A stretch of 53,176 bases of DNA from NCBI GenBank assembly GCA_947474545.1, contig CANJJI010000010.1, forward strand, positions 1 to 53,176, in the 5' to 3' direction. A model generated the notes under the pieces. That model saw only the letters and a list, made by a program, of their open reading frames with translations. It did not search any database and had not been told where the DNA came from. Shown piece after piece: positions 5,098 to 50,084 of this stretch (the stretch's first letter is position 1; each line of letters starts with the position of its first letter). A program made the translations under genes and the position numbers. This DNA comes from Beijerinckiaceae bacterium (lineage in GTDB: Bacteria > Pseudomonadota > Alphaproteobacteria > Rhizobiales > Beijerinckiaceae).

Positions 5098-5139
5098 TTT
5101 TGCTGATCGCACTTGGCCGCTAACAGATCGACTTCAGGC

Positions 5140-6139
5140 ATGGATCTAATCCTCACCCCAGACAATCCCGTCCCGCCCGGCGCGAATGTGGCAACCATTC
5201 GCGCGGTGGACGGCATGACGTTGCGAACGGCACGATGGCATCCCGAGGGACGCTCGCGAGGGACGGTGGTGATCGCCCAGGGGCGGGCCGAATTTATCGA
5301 GAAATATTTTGAGACCGTCGGCGATTTGCTCAAGCGCGGGCTGACGGTTGTGGCCTTCGACTGGCGGGGGCAGGGATTGTCTGGCCGCGAACTCGATAAT
5401 TCCCGTAAAGGCCATATTGACGATTTTTCCCTGTACGAGCGCGATCTCGATGCGATCCTCGATCAGGTGCTTATCCCATTTTGTCCCGAACCCTGGTTTG
5501 CCCTCGGCCATTCCATGGGGGGGGGGGGCGATCCTGATCCGGCAGGCGCGCGCCGTTCGCTCACCGTTTGAGCGGATTGTGCTGACTGCGCCGATGCTGG
5601 AGCTCTACGGGCTAAAATTTCCGGGTCTGCTGCGGGCCATTGCCAAGGTTCTCGATCTTATGGGCCTGGGTGGCGCATTTATTCCGCGGGGGGGTGAAAC
5701 GGCGATCCTGACGCGTCCGTTCAAGGACAACAAGCTCACGTCCGATCCCGAACGTTATGGCCGCAATAATAATATTGTCGCGGCGGGTCCGCATCTGGCG
5801 ATTGGCGATCCCACCATCGGCTGGATAGACGGCGCTTTTGCGATCTTCGACGAATTTGCCGATCCAGAGTATCCACGCCGCACCTTGACGCCCATTCTGA
5901 TCATTGCCGGGGCCGCCGATCGTATCGTTGATCTGCATGTGCTGGAGCGGTTTGCTTCGCGTCTGAAGGCGGGACGGATGATCATGCTCTCGCGCGGGCG
6001 GCACGAGATCCTGATGGAGAAAGACGACATCCGCGGGCAGTTCTGGGCCGCCTTCGATGCGTTCATCCCCGGGACGCGGGAGGAATATGACGCGCTGGTC
6101 GAGGCGCAAACGGTGATCGAAAGCGTCCGCCGGAGATAG
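5140..6139 (+). pseudogene. Alpha/beta hydrolase (lysophospholipase-like) frameshifted in a G12 tract
   Basis: The first half (5140-5571 frame) reads as a serine hydrolase with WRGQGLSGR and the nucleophile elbow GHSMGG. The second half, in another frame (about 5523-6139), supplies AILIRQARA, the ADRIVD acid region and the RGRHEIL histidine region. The break falls in a run of 12 G at 5517-5528, exactly in the Met-Gly-Gly codons after the nucleophile Ser. Restoring one frame needs 8 or 11 G. The joined product would be about 330 residues, as expected for PldB-like monoacylglycerol lipase or lysophospholipase. It may be a sequencing or assembly miscount, a true pseudogene, or a slippage-variable gene. 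Confidence 0.8.
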
Positions 6140-6152
6140 CTGCAGCGCCGAA

Positions 6153-6193
6153 ATAGCATTTTCGTTAACGTTGTGAAAAAGTTAAAATGCTAT
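6153..6193. promoter_or_regulatory. Perfect 10-bp inverted repeat upstream of the radical SAM operon
   Basis: ATAGCATTTT (6153-6162) and AAAATGCTAT (6184-6193) form a perfect inverted repeat separated by 21 bases, and the spacer begins with the palindrome CGTTAACG (6163-6170). It lies 14 bases after the preceding hydrolase frame ends and about 75 bases before the first likely start codon of the next operon. No T-run follows, so a terminator is less likely than an operator or promoter-region structure. The binding protein is unknown. Confidence 0.45.
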
Positions 6194-6266
6194 CTGGACT
6201 CCACTAAGCTTTGCTTGGGCCGGGCAGGATCGAAGGATAAATCAGAGGCGCCTGAGTGCAGGCATT

Positions 6267-7280
6267 TTGGCGGATCTTTCATTTCAGGACTGGCGCTGTA
6301 CCGGGTGCGGCATTCGTGTGGATGCAGCAGTCAAATTGTTCTCGTTGTTCAAATGTGGCGTGCCCGTGTCCCTACTTTTTGTGCCTGAACATACTGCCAA
6401 ACGCTATCAATCGCGAACTCCCGAGCGTGCGATCGAAGAGCTTGCAGCGGCTTACCAGCCTTCATCCGTGCGATATCGCATTGAGGACAGCCCTTTTAGA
6501 ACGCTGCTTGTCGACATTACGCATCGCTGCAATATGGCGTGCAAGAATTGCTATATCCCGGTGCGGCATCTGCCGGACATGCCAGCGGACTGGCTTTACG
6601 ATGTTTTGGCGCGTCTGCCGCGGCGGTCCCGCATCCGGCTCGTCGGTGCTGAAGCGACTGTACGGCAGGATCTGCCGGATATCATTACCCGGGTTCGTCA
6701 ACTTGGTCATATCCCCATTGTTCTCACCAATGGCCTGAAACTTGGAAATCGCACCTATGTGCGTAAATTGAAAGCTGCGGGTCTGCGGACGCTTTATTTG
6801 TCGCTTAACGGTGGCCTGCGCGATGATCTTTACCAAGCCATCGACGATCTTGCCTGTGCAGACCGCAAGCTGCAGGCGCTGGACAATATCCTGGCTGAAA
6901 AGATTCATCTGACTGTCGGTGTGATCGCCGTGCGTGGCGTGAATGACGAGCATATCGCAGAATTTCTGCCGTGGCTTGAATCGCGAGGCGTCAGGGATGT
7001 CCACGTTCGTTCAGTCGGACCTGTCGGCGAATATATGAGGGGCGCTCCCTTCAGTCTTGACGAGCTTGAAGCGATAGTACGCCGTTCATTTGCAGGCACA
7101 GCAGGCGAACTGGAGTTGGTGTCTGCTGAAGGCTCGAACAGAGATTTCCGGCTTGGACGCATGTTGATCCAGTTGACGCATTGGCCGGATCTTGGGAGCC
7201 GGGAGCGCGGCCGCATCACACCGGATGGTTTTGTCGAACCTCACTTCGAAAGCATGCTTGCCAATGAGTTCCAGTACTGA
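6267..7280 (+). CDS. Radical SAM enzyme of unknown reaction, N-terminal CxxC
   Basis: The protein of about 337 residues has the radical SAM cluster motif as Cys88-x3-Cys92-x2-Cys95 (HRCNMACKNCY), followed by a GAEAT segment (127-131) where many family members have GGEP, and TIM-barrel strands such as PIVLTNGLKL. The N-terminus has WRCTGCG (Cys11, Cys14) and Cys30, perhaps a small metal-binding knuckle. There is no Cys-rich SPASM/twitch tail. The start is uncertain: no ATG or GTG lies in frame, and TTG at 6267 is the most plausible. The 3' end overlaps the diiron-protein gene by 17 bp, so the two are coupled. The substrate cannot be predicted. Confidence 0.8.
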   Translation: MADLSFQDWRCTGCGIRVDAAVKLFSLFKCGVPVSLLFVPEHTAKRYQSRTPERAIEELAAAYQPSSVRYRIEDSPFRTLLVDITHRCNMACKNCYIPVRHLPDMPADWLYDVLARLPRRSRIRLVGAEATVRQDLPDIITRVRQLGHIPIVLTNGLKLGNRTYVRKLKAAGLRTLYLSLNGGLRDDLYQAIDDLACADRKLQALDNILAEKIHLTVGVIAVRGVNDEHIAEFLPWLESRGVRDVHVRSVGPVGEYMRGAPFSLDELEAIVRRSFAGTAGELELVSAEGSNRDFRLGRMLIQLTHWPDLGSRERGRITPDGFVEPHFESMLANEFQY

Positions 7281-7983
7281 GCTTCTTTCTCCATTGGAGC
7301 TGGAGCATGCACAACGGCAGGCAGTGCATGGGTATGCATGTGAAGACACGAGATTTTACCGTGCGCTCGTGAGCGGTAAATGTTCGCCGAAAATTCTGCA
7401 ACGATTTGCTCTGGCGCAATATCATTCAACCATTCTGTTCTGCGGATTGCTGGCTGAATTTGCCGTCAGCGCTCCCGATCCTCAGGCCCGGCTTCTGATC
7501 CTCGAGAACCTCATGGAAGAGGAAGGGATTTACCTTCACACGAGCCGGGGGCTGGTCGTGCGGCCGGAGGCGCGGCACACCGCGCTGGCATTGAAATTTC
7601 TCGAAGCTTGCGGTGGCAAGGCACGTCCGCTGAACGGGGAAACCTATACGACGGCACAAGCCAAAGCTTTTCTTGATGAGGGCCGCTGGCTGGAGGCCGT
7701 CGCATTTCTGTTGATCGGACAGGAGCTCACATTCGCTCCCCGTTCGAACAAGCTTTATACAGCGTTTCTAAAGAATGGTTTTGCTGAAGACGATATCGTT
7801 TTTTACGCTATTCATGGGCAAGCTGATCTTGAACATGGCCGGCAGGCGCTGGAAATGGTGACGGCACGCGCCGACACTGTGGAATTGCAACATGGCGTGA
7901 TTGCGGCGGCCCGGGCTGGCGCTCGCATCTGGTTTGACGTGCATGGCGGCGGTGTTGAAAAAACAATTTTGGCTGCGGCTTAA
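7264..7983 (+). CDS. Haem-oxygenase-like diiron protein (TenA/PqqC/CADD superfamily)
   Basis: This 239-residue, all-helical, soluble protein belongs to the TenA/PqqC/CADD superfamily. The likely diiron ligands of haem-oxygenase-like diiron oxidases can be placed: Glu85 and His92 (E-x6-H), Glu154 (in LIGQELTF), and His184-x3-Asp188-x2-His191. The spacing matches that known for CADD (E, H at +7, E, then HxxxDxxH). TenA thiaminases lack this set and use a Cys. Enzymes of this type activate O2 for oxidative C-N or C-C cleavage or N-oxygenation. The ATG at 7264 is chosen because it overlaps the radical SAM stop and leaves the expected N-terminus. It is the second gene of a four-gene operon. Confidence 0.8.
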   Translation: MSSSTELLSPLELEHAQRQAVHGYACEDTRFYRALVSGKCSPKILQRFALAQYHSTILFCGLLAEFAVSAPDPQARLLILENLMEEEGIYLHTSRGLVVRPEARHTALALKFLEACGGKARPLNGETYTTAQAKAFLDEGRWLEAVAFLLIGQELTFAPRSNKLYTAFLKNGFAEDDIVFYAIHGQADLEHGRQALEMVTARADTVELQHGVIAAARAGARIWFDVHGGGVEKTILAAA

Positions 7984-7994
7984 GTCGTGCAGTC

Positions 7995-9449
7995 ATGAAC
8001 TTTGCATCGTGGAGCTTCATCGGCGTTTTTCTGCCGCTTGCTTTGACTGGCTTCTTCGTTTGCCCCGTTGAAGGCAATTATCGCCGCAACTGGCTCATAC
8101 TGGTCTCCTTTCTGTTTTATGCAAACACAGGTTTGGTTAGCTCAGCGATTCTGGCTGTCTCGATCGCGATCAACTTTTCGGCAGGCCAGACGCTTTCTAC
8201 TGGTGAGTTGAGCCAAAAGGGCCGGCTCGCGACGCTCTGGCTTGCCATAGTTGCGAATGTCTTCATTCTCGCGGCTTTCAAAGTGGCGGCTTTGCAGTCT
8301 TTCAGCGGTGGTTCTTTTGTATCAAGCGAACAAGTGTTGTTGCCGCTTGGGTTGTCGTTCATAACATTTCAGCAAATTGGGTATGTCGTTTCTTGCTATC
8401 GCCGGGAATTTTCAAATGCAACGCCGGGGGATTACCTGTTCTTTGTTTTGTTTTTTCCGCAGTTGATCATGGGCCCGATCGTGCGCTTTGCTGACATGAC
8501 GCGTCAGGTTCACGCCAAGGCTTTCGCTGCAGTGAGCCTGCACAATTTTGCGGTTGGACTGGCGATCTTCATGTTCGGCCTGGCCAAAAAAGTCTTGCTG
8601 GCCGACGCATTGAACGAGCCCGTGGACCGGGTCTTTCGATTGGCCGAAACTGGATTTTCGACGCCTGACGCCTATTTCGCAGCCATCGGTTTTCAGCTGC
8701 AACTCTTTCTCGATTTCACAGCCTATGCCGAAATGTCGATAGGCTTGGCTCGTATTTTCAATATCAGTCTGCCAATTGGTTTTGATCGCCCGCTGCACGC
8801 TATCAGTAGATTAGATCTGTGGTCACGGTGGAACATCACATTCGTCATGTTCATGCGCGAACATGTTTTCCTGCCCCTGGTCAGGACTGCGGGATTGCCG
8901 ATTCCCGCTGCACTTGCGATTACTGGGATTATATCGGGCCTTTGGCATGGGCTCGGCTGGACGTTTGTGATGTGGGGTCTGGTGCAGACACTGCTGCTGC
9001 TGGCATCAAATGCGCGCAGCAAATTTGCGCGCAGGACAGGCAAGCTTTCACCGCTCACGCATATTCGCGCTATCGCAGCGACCTTCGCAGTGACGTGCCT
9101 TGTTGGCATCCTCTTTCGTGCCGGCTCATTAGAAGGGGCGGTCAAATTTTATCTGACGCTCATTCCCGATCTCCGTGCGCCGCCGGGTATCTCCCTGACG
9201 GGACCCTATGCATGGGGTGGTTTGTTGCTGTGTGCTTTCGTTGGGTGGTTCATGCCCGATGCGCGTTCGTTCTTTACAAAATATTGGACAGCCGTTGATC
9301 CCCGGCGAGGCGGCGCGGGGCGTGAGCCAGCCCGCACGCGATGGCAGTTTGATTTGAATTATGGCTGGGGCACTGCCGCTGCATTGGTGATGATCGCCGT
9401 TCTGATGCGCCTGGAGACAAGTCAGAGATTCATCTATGTCCAGTTCTGA
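7995..9449 (+). CDS. MBOAT family O-acyltransferase (AlgI/DltB-like)
   Basis: This polytopic inner-membrane protein of 484 residues moves acyl groups across the membrane onto an extracytoplasmic acceptor. Family marks are LPLGLSFITFQQ (116-126), FLDFTAYAEMSIGLAR (238-253), FDRPL and GLWHGLGWTFVMWG with the invariant His318. The usual second histidine of AlgI (in 'RRWHIS') is here Asn280 (SRWNIT), giving an Asn/His pair like that of several protein-acylating MBOATs. It begins 11 bases after the diiron gene and overlaps the next gene by 14 bp. MBOAT plus SGNH partners (AlgI/AlgX, PatA/PatB, DltB/DltD) are a known acyl-transfer arrangement. The acyl group and acceptor are unknown. Confidence 0.92.
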   Translation: MNFASWSFIGVFLPLALTGFFVCPVEGNYRRNWLILVSFLFYANTGLVSSAILAVSIAINFSAGQTLSTGELSQKGRLATLWLAIVANVFILAAFKVAALQSFSGGSFVSSEQVLLPLGLSFITFQQIGYVVSCYRREFSNATPGDYLFFVLFFPQLIMGPIVRFADMTRQVHAKAFAAVSLHNFAVGLAIFMFGLAKKVLLADALNEPVDRVFRLAETGFSTPDAYFAAIGFQLQLFLDFTAYAEMSIGLARIFNISLPIGFDRPLHAISRLDLWSRWNITFVMFMREHVFLPLVRTAGLPIPAALAITGIISGLWHGLGWTFVMWGLVQTLLLLASNARSKFARRTGKLSPLTHIRAIAATFAVTCLVGILFRAGSLEGAVKFYLTLIPDLRAPPGISLTGPYAWGGLLLCAFVGWFMPDARSFFTKYWTAVDPRRGGAGREPARTRWQFDLNYGWGTAAALVMIAVLMRLETSQRFIYVQF

Positions 9450-10473
9450 TGCTGAAGCTCCGCGCCGCTTTGTTAAAGGGCTGCTGTCCAGCGCGATGAT
9501 GGCGGCAGTCATTATCGCTGCGATAAATTTTGCCGCGGATCCCTATGAATACTGGCGGGGGGCCACAACGAAGTTCTGCGAGCCGATGGCGGGGCGCGGC
9601 GTTGAGGCGCAATTGAAGCCGTCGATCCCCGCGATCCGCGATGCAAATGTCGTCTATATTGGCTCTTCGCGTGTTCTGCATGGCTTTGATCGGGAGACGT
9701 TGCAGGAAGGCCACCGCGATATCAGGCCGGCCAATCTTGGGTCGCCCGCGCCCGATTTGCAGGCGTTTCTGACGCTGGCCTATGCGACCCTTGATGCGCC
9801 GAGTGTGGAGCGTATCGCACTGGGGCTTGATTTTGGCATGTTTTATCGCGGCGCTGGCGATGGCGGGGCGAGATCCAGTTTGAACCCGGCGTTCAAGCGA
9901 TTGAAGACTGTATTGGCGACGCTCGTATCCCTGCATGTGACAGCGGCAAGCTTGCAGATTATCCAGCATGGCTCGCGATGCTTTCCGGCCAACATGACCG
10001 CCGACGGGTTTGACTCGCCTGCTCTGCGCCAGCGCCTGGACGCAGAACCCGATTATGCGGAAAAAGACCCGCGGCGAACACTTGCATTGATTCTTCCCAA
10101 ACTCGGGAGTTCGCCGCAGGAAATTCAGGCAACGCTTCTGACGTCTGATTTTGCAGTGTTGTCCCGGTTCATGGAACGGGCCATCGCGCGCCATGTTTCG
10201 GTCGAAATATTTATAAGCCCATCGCGGCCGGACTATTTTGAAAGTCTTGAGCGGTCTAACCTCAGACATGTTTATGGGGCATGGCAAACATCATTGGCAG
10301 AATGGGCAAAGCAGGCTTCTGGAAAACCGGTGTTTGCGGATTTTACCGGGATGTATTCAAACGCAAGCACCAACGAGCTGGCTGCGGCGTTTTACGATCC
10401 AGTGCATTTCAAACCTGCGGTGGGAGCCAGGATCGTTGAACATATGGCGCGTTTGCGCGCGGTCAGACCCTGA
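9436..10473 (+). CDS. SGNH-hydrolase-like membrane-anchored partner of the MBOAT
   Basis: The 345-residue protein has an N-terminal membrane anchor (about residues 14-33) and a periplasmic domain. YIGSSRVLHGFD (74-85) fits SGNH block I with Ser77 or Ser78 as nucleophile, and YDPVHFKP supplies the block V pair Asp321/His324. Proteins of this design (AlgX/AlgJ, DltD, PatB) take the acyl group from an MBOAT and place it on a polymer. The ATG at 9436 lies within the MBOAT gene end (14-bp overlap), showing coupling. It is the last gene of the operon: a convergent NfeD gene ends 10 bp beyond it. Similarity is to the fold and partner role only. Confidence 0.75.
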   Translation: MSSSDAEAPRRFVKGLLSSAMMAAVIIAAINFAADPYEYWRGATTKFCEPMAGRGVEAQLKPSIPAIRDANVVYIGSSRVLHGFDRETLQEGHRDIRPANLGSPAPDLQAFLTLAYATLDAPSVERIALGLDFGMFYRGAGDGGARSSLNPAFKRLKTVLATLVSLHVTAASLQIIQHGSRCFPANMTADGFDSPALRQRLDAEPDYAEKDPRRTLALILPKLGSSPQEIQATLLTSDFAVLSRFMERAIARHVSVEIFISPSRPDYFESLERSNLRHVYGAWQTSLAEWAKQASGKPVFADFTGMYSNASTNELAAAFYDPVHFKPAVGARIVEHMARLRAVRP

Positions 10474-10483
10474 CAGGCTTAAT

Positions 10484-10936
10484 TTAAACCTGCTCTACCT
10501 TTAATATTGTCGCGTCTTCTATTCCTGTCACCCGCACCTTTGTGCCTGCAGGCATATCGGGACCGCGCACCTTCCAGCGGGTGTCGTTGACGCGGATGGT
10601 TCCCTCGCCGCCCTTGATTGCATCGGCGAGCGCGAACGTCTTGCCGACCAGGCCATCAGCGCGGCGGTTCAAAAAGGGTTGGTCACTGATAGTATTGCGC
10701 GAGCCGTATATCTTTTGACCGAAAAAGACAGCTGCAATTGCGAACACGCCAAACAACAGCAGCGCCCATATAAAACTTAAGGGAACGGCAATCAGCACCA
10801 AGCCTGTAGCTATGGCCGCCAATCCAATGAAGAGTAGAAACACGCCGGGCGCGAGCATTTCTCCTGCGCAGAGCAGGACGCCTGCGGCAATCCAGAGCCA
10901 GTGCGCCTGGCCACCAAACGTTTGAAAGACGGTCAT
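10484..10936 (-). CDS. NfeD-like membrane protein, short form
   Basis: This 150-residue protein has several hydrophobic segments in the first 75 residues (WLWIAAGVLLCAGEMLAPGV and following) and a C-terminal OB-fold-like domain with VGKTFALAD and GEGTIRVNDTRWKVRG. This is the short NfeD family, nearly always encoded beside a stomatin/SPFH protein and thought to help organise or maintain membrane microdomains. Here it follows the SPFH gene by 18 bp on the same strand. It lacks the N-terminal ClpP-like protease domain of long NfeD proteins. It converges on the SGNH gene with only 10 bp between the stop codons and no obvious terminator. Confidence 0.9.
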   Translation of the reverse strand: MTVFQTFGGQAHWLWIAAGVLLCAGEMLAPGVFLLFIGLAAIATGLVLIAVPLSFIWALLLFGVFAIAAVFFGQKIYGSRNTISDQPFLNRRADGLVGKTFALADAIKGGEGTIRVNDTRWKVRGPDMPAGTKVRVTGIEDATILKVEQV

Positions 10937-10954
10937 ATTCTAAGTGCCCTTTGC

Positions 10955-11950
10955 TTAAACACGACCGGCCGGTGGAACGCCGGAACCTGCAGACCTTGTC
11001 TGTTGCGAGACGCGGCTTCCGCCGCTTGCATCGCCAATCGCTCCGCGCGCGATCTCGGCTATGCCGCCCAATGTTCCGGCGAGGCCTGCCATATCCATGG
11101 GCATGATGAAGGTTTTCTGGTTTGTTGAATGGGCCATGGCGTCTATGGCCTTCACATATTTCTCGGCGATGAAATAATTGATGGCGGCCGTGTCGCCTTC
11201 AGCAATGGCGTCGCTGAGAACTTTGGTTGCCGTGGCCTCCGCTTGCGCCAGACGTTCGCGCGCTTCAGCATCTCTGAAAGCTGCTTCCTTGCGGCCTTCC
11301 GCGTCCAGCACCAGCGCCTGTTTCTTGCCTTCAGCCCGAAGGATTTCTGCTTGCCGCAGACCTTCAGCTTCAAGGATGTTGGCGCGCTTTTCGCGTTCCG
11401 CTTTCATCTGGCGGCCCATGGCTTCCACAAGATCACGCGGCGGTACGATGTCCTTGATCTCGATGCGCGTCATCTTGATGCCCCAGGGCTGGACTGCGGC
11501 GTCGACGACATTCAAAAGGCTGTTGTTGATCTGGTCGCGATGCGACAGCAATTGATCGAGATCCATGGAGCCCATGACTGTGCGGATATTGGTCATCGTG
11601 AGGTTGAGCAAAGCGTTTTGCAGGTTTGAGACTTCGTAGGACGCGCGCGCAGCATCCAGAACCTGGAAGAAGATTACGCCATCAACCGAGACGCTGGCAT
11701 TGTCCTTGGTGATGACTTCCTGGGTTGGAACATCAAGCACCTGTTCCATCATGTTCATCTTGCGACCGACACGGTCCACCCAGGGAAAGATGACGCCAAG
11801 GCCTGCTTCCAGCGTCTTGTAATATTTGCCGAAGCGCTCGACGGTATAGGCATAGCCTTGCGGCACCTGCCTTATGCCCATCAACAGGGTGAGCAAGACG
11901 AAGACGAGAAAGGCTATGGTGAAGATACCTAGACCGCTCATTGTTGACAT
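10955..11950 (-). CDS. SPFH/stomatin-like protein (QmcA/slipin type)
   Basis: This 331-residue membrane-anchored SPFH protein starts with a hydrophobic segment (about residues 5-25, GIFTIAFLVFVLLTLLMGI), then the SPFH/Band 7 domain with VPQGYAYTVERFGKY and MTRIEIKDIVPPRDL. A long Ala/Glu/Arg coiled coil follows (EKRANILEAEGLRQAEILRA and onwards), and the C-terminus is Gly-rich. Such proteins oligomerise and scaffold membrane domains, usually with NfeD as partner. The start at 11950 is preferred over the longer frame because GGGAGA lies upstream at good spacing and the hydrophobic anchor then sits at the N-terminus. It shares a divergent region (11951-12153) with the transglycosylase gene. Confidence 0.93.
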   Translation of the reverse strand: MSTMSGLGIFTIAFLVFVLLTLLMGIRQVPQGYAYTVERFGKYYKTLEAGLGVIFPWVDRVGRKMNMMEQVLDVPTQEVITKDNASVSVDGVIFFQVLDAARASYEVSNLQNALLNLTMTNIRTVMGSMDLDQLLSHRDQINNSLLNVVDAAVQPWGIKMTRIEIKDIVPPRDLVEAMGRQMKAEREKRANILEAEGLRQAEILRAEGKKQALVLDAEGRKEAAFRDAEARERLAQAEATATKVLSDAIAEGDTAAINYFIAEKYVKAIDAMAHSTNQKTFIMPMDMAGLAGTLGGIAEIARGAIGDASGGSRVSQQTRSAGSGVPPAGRV

Positions 11951-48448: not shown

Positions 48449-49591
48449 TCAGATCACATGCGTTTCGAGCGGCGGAAAGCCGTTGAAACCGACCGCCGAA
48501 TAAGTGGTCGTATAGGCGCCCGTGCCTTCGATCAGGACCTTCGCGCCGATCTCCAGGGAAACCGGAAGATCATACGGGGTCTTTTCGTACAGCACGTCCA
48601 CCGAATCGCAGGTCGGTCCGGCAATCACGCAAGGCTCCATCTCGTCGCCGTCAAAGGCGGTGCGGATGGGATAGCGGATCATCTCGTCCATGGTTTCAGC
48701 AAGCCCGTTGAACTTGCCGATGTCGAGATAGACCCAGCGCATCGTGTCCTGCGCGGACTTTTTCGAGATCAGAATCACTTCCGCCTCGATTGTGCCGGCA
48801 TTGCCGACCATGCCACGTCCCGGTTCGATAATTGTCTCGGGAATCTGGTTGCCGAAATGCTTGCGCAGCGATTTGAAGATCGACTGGCCATAGGCTTTCA
48901 CCGCGGGCACGTCCTTCAGATACTTTGTCGGGAAGCCGCCGCCGAGGTTCACCATCGCAAGATGGATGCCCCGTTCAGCCAGCTCACGGAAGATCGTTGC
49001 CGATGAACGCAGAGCTGCATCCCACATGCGCGGGTTGCGCTGCTGCGAGCCGACATGGAAGGATATGCCATAGGCGATCAGGCCCAGACGGTGCGCATGC
49101 TCAAGTACTGTCGTGGCCATTTCAGGCACACAGCCGAACTTGCGCGAGAGCGGCCATTCGGCGCCCGCACCGTCGCAGAGAATGCGGCAGAATACTTTCG
49201 AGCCGGGCGCAACACGCGCGATCTTCTCGACTTCCGCCTCGCAATCGACAGCGAAAAGCCGGATGCCGTATTGATAGGCGCGCGCGATATCACGTTCCTT
49301 CTTGATCGTGTTGCCGAAACTGATGCGCTCAGGCGTCGCGCCGGCGGCCAGCACCTGCTCGATCTCGACCACGGAAGCCGTATCGAAACAGGAGCCAAGG
49401 TCCGCCAGGAGCGAGAGAACGGCAGGTTCCGGATTGGCCTTCACCGCATAAAAGACACGGGTATCCGGCAACGACCGGGCGAAGGCGTTGTAATTGTCGC
49501 GAATGACATCGAGATCGACGACAAGGCACGGGCCTGTATCGCGGCCTTCGGCGCGGCGGCGGGCAAGAAATTCCTGGACACGATAGGTCAT
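48449..49591 (-). CDS. Ornithine (or lysine/ornithine) decarboxylase, group III fold
   Basis: This 380-residue PLP enzyme makes putrescine from ornithine; some members also accept lysine. PLP Lys51 is in FYAVKANPEP. His179 (FHVGSQ), the phosphate-binding GGGF (217-220), EPGRG (256-260) and the catalytic Cys328-Asp329 pair (CDSVD) match the alanine-racemase-fold decarboxylases. The ATG at 49591 follows AAGGGAA and gives the family length. An uninterrupted in-frame ATG at 49813 would add 74 residues of low similarity. It supplies putrescine to homospermidine synthase. The long upstream leader suggests post-transcriptional control. Confidence 0.95.
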   Translation of the reverse strand: MTYRVQEFLARRRAEGRDTGPCLVVDLDVIRDNYNAFARSLPDTRVFYAVKANPEPAVLSLLADLGSCFDTASVVEIEQVLAAGATPERISFGNTIKKERDIARAYQYGIRLFAVDCEAEVEKIARVAPGSKVFCRILCDGAGAEWPLSRKFGCVPEMATTVLEHAHRLGLIAYGISFHVGSQQRNPRMWDAALRSSATIFRELAERGIHLAMVNLGGGFPTKYLKDVPAVKAYGQSIFKSLRKHFGNQIPETIIEPGRGMVGNAGTIEAEVILISKKSAQDTMRWVYLDIGKFNGLAETMDEMIRYPIRTAFDGDEMEPCVIAGPTCDSVDVLYEKTPYDLPVSLEIGAKVLIEGTGAYTTTYSAVGFNGFPPLETHVI

Positions 49592-49947
49592 CGCGGCATT
49601 CCCTTCCAATGGTGCAGCTTTAGCCACACAAGAACAGACATCGGGAGAAGACGATCGCGCGCGCCCCCCTGCGGTGGAGACACAGCGTTGCGCTCGATAG
49701 CCTTCGGCGACCGTTCGCAATCTCTGCAGACGCAGGTCTGCATTGTGGCGAACAGTCAGGTTATGCGCCGTGGACACTTTTACCCCGGAAAGCGTAAGCG
49801 CAGACGCGCTCATGCGAACCAAGGTTTGGTGGCCATCGTTTGGAATGGGAAATCCCGTTCCGCACGCCCGGCAAGATAGACAAGCCTCTTCGGACGTCGG
49901 CTTTGGAAGGCCGACAGAGACGAAAAAGCCCGGTCCGTCGTTGCTTT
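49592..49947 (-). ncRNA. Long structured leader of the decarboxylase gene, speF-motif candidate
   Basis: Alphaproteobacterial ornithine decarboxylase genes are known to carry the conserved 'speF' leader RNA. Here about 350 bases precede the start codon and show structure: a perfect hairpin TGCAGAC-4-GTCTGCA (49725-49742) and a second copy of GCGTCTGC (minus strand, 49807-49800) able to pair with the same TGCAGAC arm, so the two pairings exclude each other. A 7-bp-class stem GTCGGC...GCCGAC lies near 49893-49915. A nine-codon frame (49836-49810, product MATKPWFA) ends with TGA overlapping the ATG at 49813. Assignment to the speF family is by position and needs a covariance-model test. Confidence 0.4.
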
Positions 49948-49975
49948 AAGTCGCGTCCCCCGTTTGGCGGGGTTC

Positions 49976-50003
49976 GCCGGTTCGCTCCGGCTGCCGGTTT
50001 TTT
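49976..50003 (+). terminator. Terminator-like hairpin with T-run
   Basis: GCCGG-TTCGCT-CCGGC followed by TGCCGG and TTTTTT (49998-50003) reads as a rho-independent terminator on the plus strand, preceded by another hairpin CCCCG-TTTGG-CGGGG (49958-49972). No plus-strand gene ends here, so it may stop antisense transcription or be part of the promoter region of the decarboxylase. The function is unclear. Confidence 0.3.
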
Positions 50004-50017
50004 AACAGGCGGTTAAC
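50002..50017. promoter_or_regulatory. Full CtrA-consensus site
   Basis: TTAA (50002-50005), seven bases, TTAAC (50013-50017) match the alphaproteobacterial CtrA consensus TTAA-N7-TTAAC exactly. It lies between the divergent decarboxylase and OpgG genes and could act on either. One match of nine fixed bases can occur by chance in a window of this size. Confidence 0.4.
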
Positions 50018-50084
50018 TGGCCTCTTGTCCAGATCCCCGCCAACCGACACACGACCACAGGCACGTGCGATTTGGGCAAGGGGG

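Follow-up and report, generated by a model that had tools for sequence, protein, structure and literature searches.

What could a radical S-adenosylmethionine (SAM) protein and a diiron oxidase be doing in one operon with an acyltransferase pair? The question is raised by four same-strand genes at 6267-10473 (+) in the 53,176-nucleotide stretch analysed here (contig CANJJI010000010.1 of the Beijerinckiaceae bacterium assembly GCA_947474545.1; hereafter the window), which encode a radical SAM protein, a heme-oxygenase-like diiron oxidase (HDO), a membrane-bound O-acyltransferase (MBOAT) and an SGNH-like partner. MBOAT/SGNH pairs are known chiefly for O-acetylating or D-alanylating polymers; one that shares its operon with a radical SAM protein and a diiron oxidase would hint at chemistry that goes further than acetyl groups, or at a secreted metabolite that becomes acylated. 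The answer that we tentatively favour from sequence comparisons is a recently acquired operon of two modules, an MBOAT/SGNH-like acyl shuttle and a radical SAM/HDO pair that would act on a small molecule or lipid. The acyl-shuttle half is well supported by its motifs, and one common pathway for all four genes is unproven.

Open reading frame (ORF) analysis of the window placed the radical SAM gene at 6267..7280 (+, 337 aa from TTG), the HDO gene at 7264..7983 (+, 239 aa), the MBOAT gene at 7995..9449 (+, 484 aa) and the SGNH-like gene at 9436..10473 (+, 345 aa), with a 17 bp overlap between the first two, a gap of 11 bp between HDO and MBOAT, and a 14 bp overlap between the last two. These coordinates bear out an earlier account made from the letters alone (the sequence-only reading), which had described four genes with 17-bp and 14-bp overlaps and 11-base spacing. 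Its start position of 6153 was wrong: a stop codon interrupts the radical SAM frame at 6183-6185, which makes 6153 impossible as a gene start, and the first ATG, GTG or TTG past that stop is the TTG at 6267. The exact starts of the radical SAM and HDO genes are provisional and not settled, the HDO frame being open back to a TTG at 7192. When 6153-10473 was shuffled 300 times by dinucleotides, the longest ORF on the plus strand was 168 aa on average and 344 at most, so that the length of a single ORF is not decisive alone; what is decisive for the reality of the genes is the occurrence of four ORFs of these lengths in tandem, three of them with family matches. The 11-bp spacing and the overlaps suggest one transcript. 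Promoter and terminator scans gave counts close to chance (2 against 2.7 expected, standard deviation 1.7, and 11 against 7.4 expected, standard deviation 2.6, respectively), and the operon ends 10 bp from an NfeD gene.

The MBOAT matched PF03062 at 1.3e-21 and contains WHG at residues 317-319 (His318), RWN (Asn280) and a C-terminal FIYVQF at residues 479-484 (Tyr481). As described in part of PMC12148441, the Tyr of the FXYXXF motif of PatA is auto-acetylated from acetyl-coenzyme A (CoA) and the group is then passed to a Ser of PatB; a conserved His takes part, and the same mechanism is proposed there for further MBOAT-SGNH pairs. The operon MBOAT carries the predicted counterparts of both elements of a PatAB-type shuttle, the conserved catalytic His and the C-terminal acyl-accepting Tyr motif. 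The WHG His, the C-terminal FXYXXF and an adjacent SGNH-like gene are common to the operon and to PatA/PatB, AlgI/AlgJ/AlgX and the cellulose Wss MBOAT-SGNH systems, whereas the operon adds a radical SAM protein and an HDO and has Asn280 at the first signature position. FxYxxF was present at the C-terminus of all four MBOATs compared (that of the operon, those of two other loci, L011 and L012, and one from Sinorhizobium meliloti), and the first signature position is Asn in the operon and S. meliloti proteins and His in those of L011 and L012. The sequence-only reading had taken the MBOAT and SGNH proteins for an acyl-export and transfer pair; the parts of such a pair are present, together with the FIYVQF shuttle motif, which it had not mentioned. 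DltB was the only NCBIfam match of the MBOAT (125 bits, cut-off 375) and its best PDB match (3.8e-19). The FXYXXF shuttle idea is also common to the DltB/DltD/DltX system of lipoteichoic acid D-alanylation; in the operon, however, the MBOAT itself ends in the motif, no separate DltX and no DltA/DltC-like donor gene is present among the four genes, and DltB membership was rejected.

The fourth protein had no Pfam or NCBIfam match and no PDB match up to an E value of 5, and its single-sequence structure model was too poor for use (predicted local distance difference test, pLDDT, 36). It contains GSS at residues 76-78 and DPVH at 321-324 and looks by eye hydrophobic near the N-terminus. The label 'SGNH-like' is thus a putative one: it draws on the GSS and DxxH motifs and on similarity to a single MBOAT partner, encoded at L012 in a genome from another family of this order (phmmer 2.4e-5; 26% over 149 aa by blastp, 2.8e-5). 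At that locus an MBOAT 33% identical to that of the operon directly adjoins the SGNH-like gene (the two overlap as longest ORFs, and the true start may be later), and nothing in the 18-kb stretch matched the radical SAM protein or the HDO; the MBOAT/SGNH-like pair is therefore a separable unit. At L011 the MBOAT lies amid genes that by eye resemble sugar-polymer genes, and the other three operon proteins had no match there. On an S. meliloti megaplasmid (L043, 4980-8091), an MBOAT ending in FLYQGF is followed by a gene annotated as a TonB-dependent receptor and then by an acyl carrier protein gene; the receptor-labelled gene occupies the place of the SGNH partner, and its label looks doubtful, with no NCBIfam match.

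The radical SAM protein matched PF04055 at 1.6e-15, with CX3CX2C at residues 88-95 and CxxC at 11-14. Its only cysteines are residues 11, 14, 30, 88, 92, 95 and 197, and no C-terminal cysteine cluster was found among these positions of the translation. The operon proteins were compared with NCBIfam (best 25 of 44 matches, each against its curated cut-off), and none reached a curated cut-off among the matches listed. The top scores of the radical SAM protein were with TrsS (95.5 bits, cut-off 490) and MoaA (63.3, cut-off 284), and its best PDB match was the tetraether synthase Tes (7tol, 3.8e-16), with MoaA at 2.8e-12. The radical SAM core, residues about 75-257, is common to MoaA, TrsS and Tes; unlike these, the operon protein lacks the C-terminal cysteine cluster, stays below all curated cut-offs and has an N-terminal stretch, to about residue 60, that lies outside all matches listed. 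Membership of TrsS, of Tes (61.3 of 450 bits) and of MoaA and NirJ, all below their curated NCBIfam cut-offs, was rejected, as was that of prokaryotic viperin (NCBIfam 28.8 of 180 bits; PADLOC pVip 8.8e-11 over residues 83-180 only) and of PqqE of pyrroloquinoline quinone (PQQ) synthesis (43 of 381 bits, without the C-terminal cluster cysteines). Judged by these profiles, the protein fits no curated subfamily among the matches listed. The operon protein was itself the only PqqE-profile match in the genome at 1e-10, and no PqqE at the curated cut-off was found in the 96%-complete assembly; on profile evidence, a PQQ role is excluded at the level of family membership. A reading as a ribosomally synthesized and post-translationally modified peptide locus was also rejected: the precursor scan covered 6100-6300, which holds one complete ORF of at least 18 aa, antisense, and 10440-10960, where the ORFs lie in or across the NfeD gene.

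The HDO matched PF14518 at 2.4e-12. Its ligand positions, E86, H105, E154, H184, D188 and H191, were assigned by alignment with the ligand positions of CADD, and all six are invariant in an alignment of seven sequences. Both the family profile and the six-ligand 3H/3C set described in section 4 of the review PMC13108848 are present, and metal binding is predicted. The single-sequence structure model (pLDDT 43) was too low for fold assignment, and PADLOC gave one match of 13.8 bits.

In the PDB, the solved structures closest to the seven-sequence profile are those of the CADD/NePabS/PqqC branch, whose six ligand positions the HDO keeps: CADD-type p-aminobenzoate (pABA) synthases matched at 2.5e-30, PqqC at 2.9e-24 and UndA lower at 2.8e-6, scores that describe the group and not the operon HDO alone. 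This best match, together with the alignment of Tyr32 with the sacrificial Tyr27 of CADD, would suit an HDO that is a self-sacrificing pABA synthase of the CADD type, serving folate supply, with the radical SAM protein as bystander or helper. Of the three residues whose roles are given in part of PMC11965152 (sacrificial Tyr, second Tyr and amine-donor Lys), however, Tyr32 is the only one kept; the HDO has Phe48 at the second essential Tyr position (Tyr41 of NePabS, Tyr43 of CADD by offset) and Leu164 at the Lys152 position, with a Lys one residue away. Searched by itself, it scored 32.9 bits with TIGR04305, far under the cut-off of 200, and among its weak PDB matches CADD (0.017) came behind 3bjd (0.0092) and a PqqC-named chain (0.011). 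No folate gene is present among the four, CADD-type membership was rejected, and we consider a pABA role very improbable. No canonical PabB was found in the 96%-complete assembly, where the gene may lie in a gap, and the only match to the PabB profile (TIGR00553) in the genome at 1e-10 is TrpE (574 bits, above the cut-off of 517.7); the lack of a canonical PabB therefore leaves this weak rival standing. The sequence-only reading had counted it as refuting evidence if the first two enzymes belonged to a known cofactor pathway elsewhere on the chromosome, a condition examined here for PQQ and pABA: for PQQ this fell away with the missing PqqE, and for pABA it survives in this weak form.

In the two-module operon that we favour, cytoplasmic acyl-CoA would supply an acyl group, in the simplest case acetyl, which the MBOAT would take up using His318 and load on Tyr481 of its C-terminal FIYVQF tail. 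From the tail the group would go to a serine (probably Ser78) of the SGNH-like partner, a membrane-anchored protein that would put it on an acceptor outside the cytoplasmic membrane. The FIYVQF tyrosine would offer a direct handle, since Tyr481 is where the group transferred by the operon is to be expected. A small molecule or lipid in the cytoplasm may be the substrate of the radical SAM protein and the HDO. Their product would more likely receive the acyl group than be that group, because activating a new acid would take a CoA ligase or carrier protein and the operon has neither. The sequence-only reading had proposed the opposite role, in which the radical SAM protein and HDO build or modify an unusual acyl group for the MBOAT/SGNH pair to export and join to a polymer of the envelope. 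The same operon layout would serve this version, fatty or amino acids are the main substrates of characterised HDOs (PMC13108848, section 4), and Tes, to which the radical SAM protein is closest in the PDB, acts on lipid chains; set against this, none of the four genes encodes a CoA ligase, adenylating enzyme or carrier protein, the NCBIfam score with Tes is below the cut-off, and no conserved neighbourhood was found in the genome samples. A role of the first two enzymes in making the transferred group was not supported, and we regard it as distinctly unlikely. That the operon encodes a decoration pathway of a new kind, with an unusual group or acceptor made jointly by the radical SAM protein and HDO and then installed or acylated outside the membrane by the MBOAT/SGNH shuttle, we hold to be rather unlikely.

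Several points weigh against the two-module reading. None of the four genes encodes an exporter for a small acceptor, the acceptor and donor roles of the radical SAM/HDO product are not directly distinguished, and the SGNH fold of the fourth protein is putative. Such pairs may also use donors other than CoA, since an acyl carrier protein gene lies two genes beyond the S. meliloti MBOAT relative. The samples searched, which cannot rule out a distant second case, contained no further genome with the four-gene set, and the want of one weakens the proposal of a common pathway. Furthermore, none of the eight HDO places in seven other genomes of the order has a neighbour matching the radical SAM, MBOAT or SGNH-like protein (phmmer, E <=0.05), in a comparison of limited reach, as the HDO query re-found only one of these eight HDOs, though the radical SAM query found other radical SAM proteins elsewhere at 1e-9 to 1e-12; no ORF >200 aa with CX3CX2C was listed around these places. 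With no second genome and no partners at the other HDO places, only adjacency and composition tie the radical SAM/HDO module to the shuttle module. The sequence-only reading had proposed to look for the four families as conserved neighbours and had counted their occurrence in this genome only as evidence against its pathway; among the samples, the set was indeed found in this genome only.

The radical SAM protein was found in its own genome only, that is in 1/51 genomes of the genus (E 1e-20), 1/397 of the order (1e-25) and 1/398 of the phylum (1e-16), samples that overlap. A peptide-pattern scan for the protein in contigs from 84,980 species, which reaches close relatives only, picked out 33 stretches, and one of them, from an Omnitrophota metagenome-assembled genome, encodes a relative (39% match to residues 84-157). 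The HDO, its own copy included, occurs at one place in its own genome, in 4 of 61 relatives (1e-3) and in 3 of 385 genomes of the class (1e-10); two class-level HDO loci gave the HDO match only and none for the other three operon proteins. A PF14518 match occurs in 8 of the 219 order genomes, the operon's own among them, and in 2 of 14 control genomes. The SGNH-like protein was found in 1/51 genus genomes (1e-5) and the MBOAT in 3/150 relatives (1e-60), own included. Plasmid records held no radical SAM match at 1e-20 and none for the SGNH-like protein; at 1e-3 there were 112 for the radical SAM protein, none counted at 80% query coverage, and two Caballeronia plasmid matches were set aside as MoaA-like by eye, with no HDO, MBOAT or SGNH match beside them. 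The HDO matched six plasmid records, and in the two examined neither the annotation nor a search showed a radical SAM or MBOAT gene. A phage origin was rejected, the operon proteins having no PHROG match; in viral contigs the HDO profile gave 203 candidate stretches and no relatives, and one MBOAT relative was found at 32%. No pathway combining a radical SAM protein, an MBOAT and a heme-oxygenase-like diiron enzyme was found among the listed titles and abstract openings of the open-access literature.

The distribution of the genes bears on a further explanation, that two unrelated gene pairs lie side by side, for example on one transferred fragment, as an envelope acyltransferase pair and a separate oxidative pair. 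This would agree with the MBOAT/SGNH-like pair standing without the others at L012, with one annotated plasmid relative of the HDO that sits among 2Fe-2S protein and aldehyde dehydrogenase genes, and with the HDO loci examined elsewhere, which had no MBOAT or radical SAM match while the full set was found once only. Against it stand the spacing and overlaps, which suggest one transcript, and the G+C content at third codon positions (GC3), which is alike in all four genes; we judge it doubtful, if well conceivable. The GC3 of the four operon genes (0.542-0.601) is the lowest of the 19 genes measured, the 15 other chosen window genes lying at 0.62-0.738.

The neighbourhood in related genomes points the same way as the composition. 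An SPFH gene was found in 27 of the 51 genus genomes at 1e-60, own included, and 10 of the 26 others were examined: NfeD lies beside SPFH at all 10 sister loci, and none of the fetched stretches contains any of the four operon genes (0/10, tblastn 1e-8). The low GC3 common to the four genes and their absence at the sister loci fit one recent acquisition event. The upstream cys genes were not found in those 10 sister stretches, so that the upstream junction is without sister support. In this 286-contig draft an assembly join at the locus is conceivable, though the operon runs to 10 bp from NfeD.

Other features of the window were also recorded. A serine-hydrolase-like gene at 5113-6139 contains a run of 12 G at 5517-5528 (expected count in the window 0.01), at the GHSMGG nucleophile elbow, and the frame changes about there; both pieces match Hydrolase_4 (PF12146), and a homologue lies beside SPFH at two sister loci (L033 and L034). 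The run is either an assembly error or a phase-variable tract. The protein encoded at 17382-18710 matches both the TLC ATP/ADP transporter family PF03219 (30.7 bits, cut-off 21), which is best known from intracellular bacteria and plastids, and MFS_1 (35.5 bits, cut-off 33.4). At 49786-50077 (-), a speF leader and an ar45 small RNA are adjacent on the 5' side of a gene at 48449-49822 that by eye is ornithine-decarboxylase-like.

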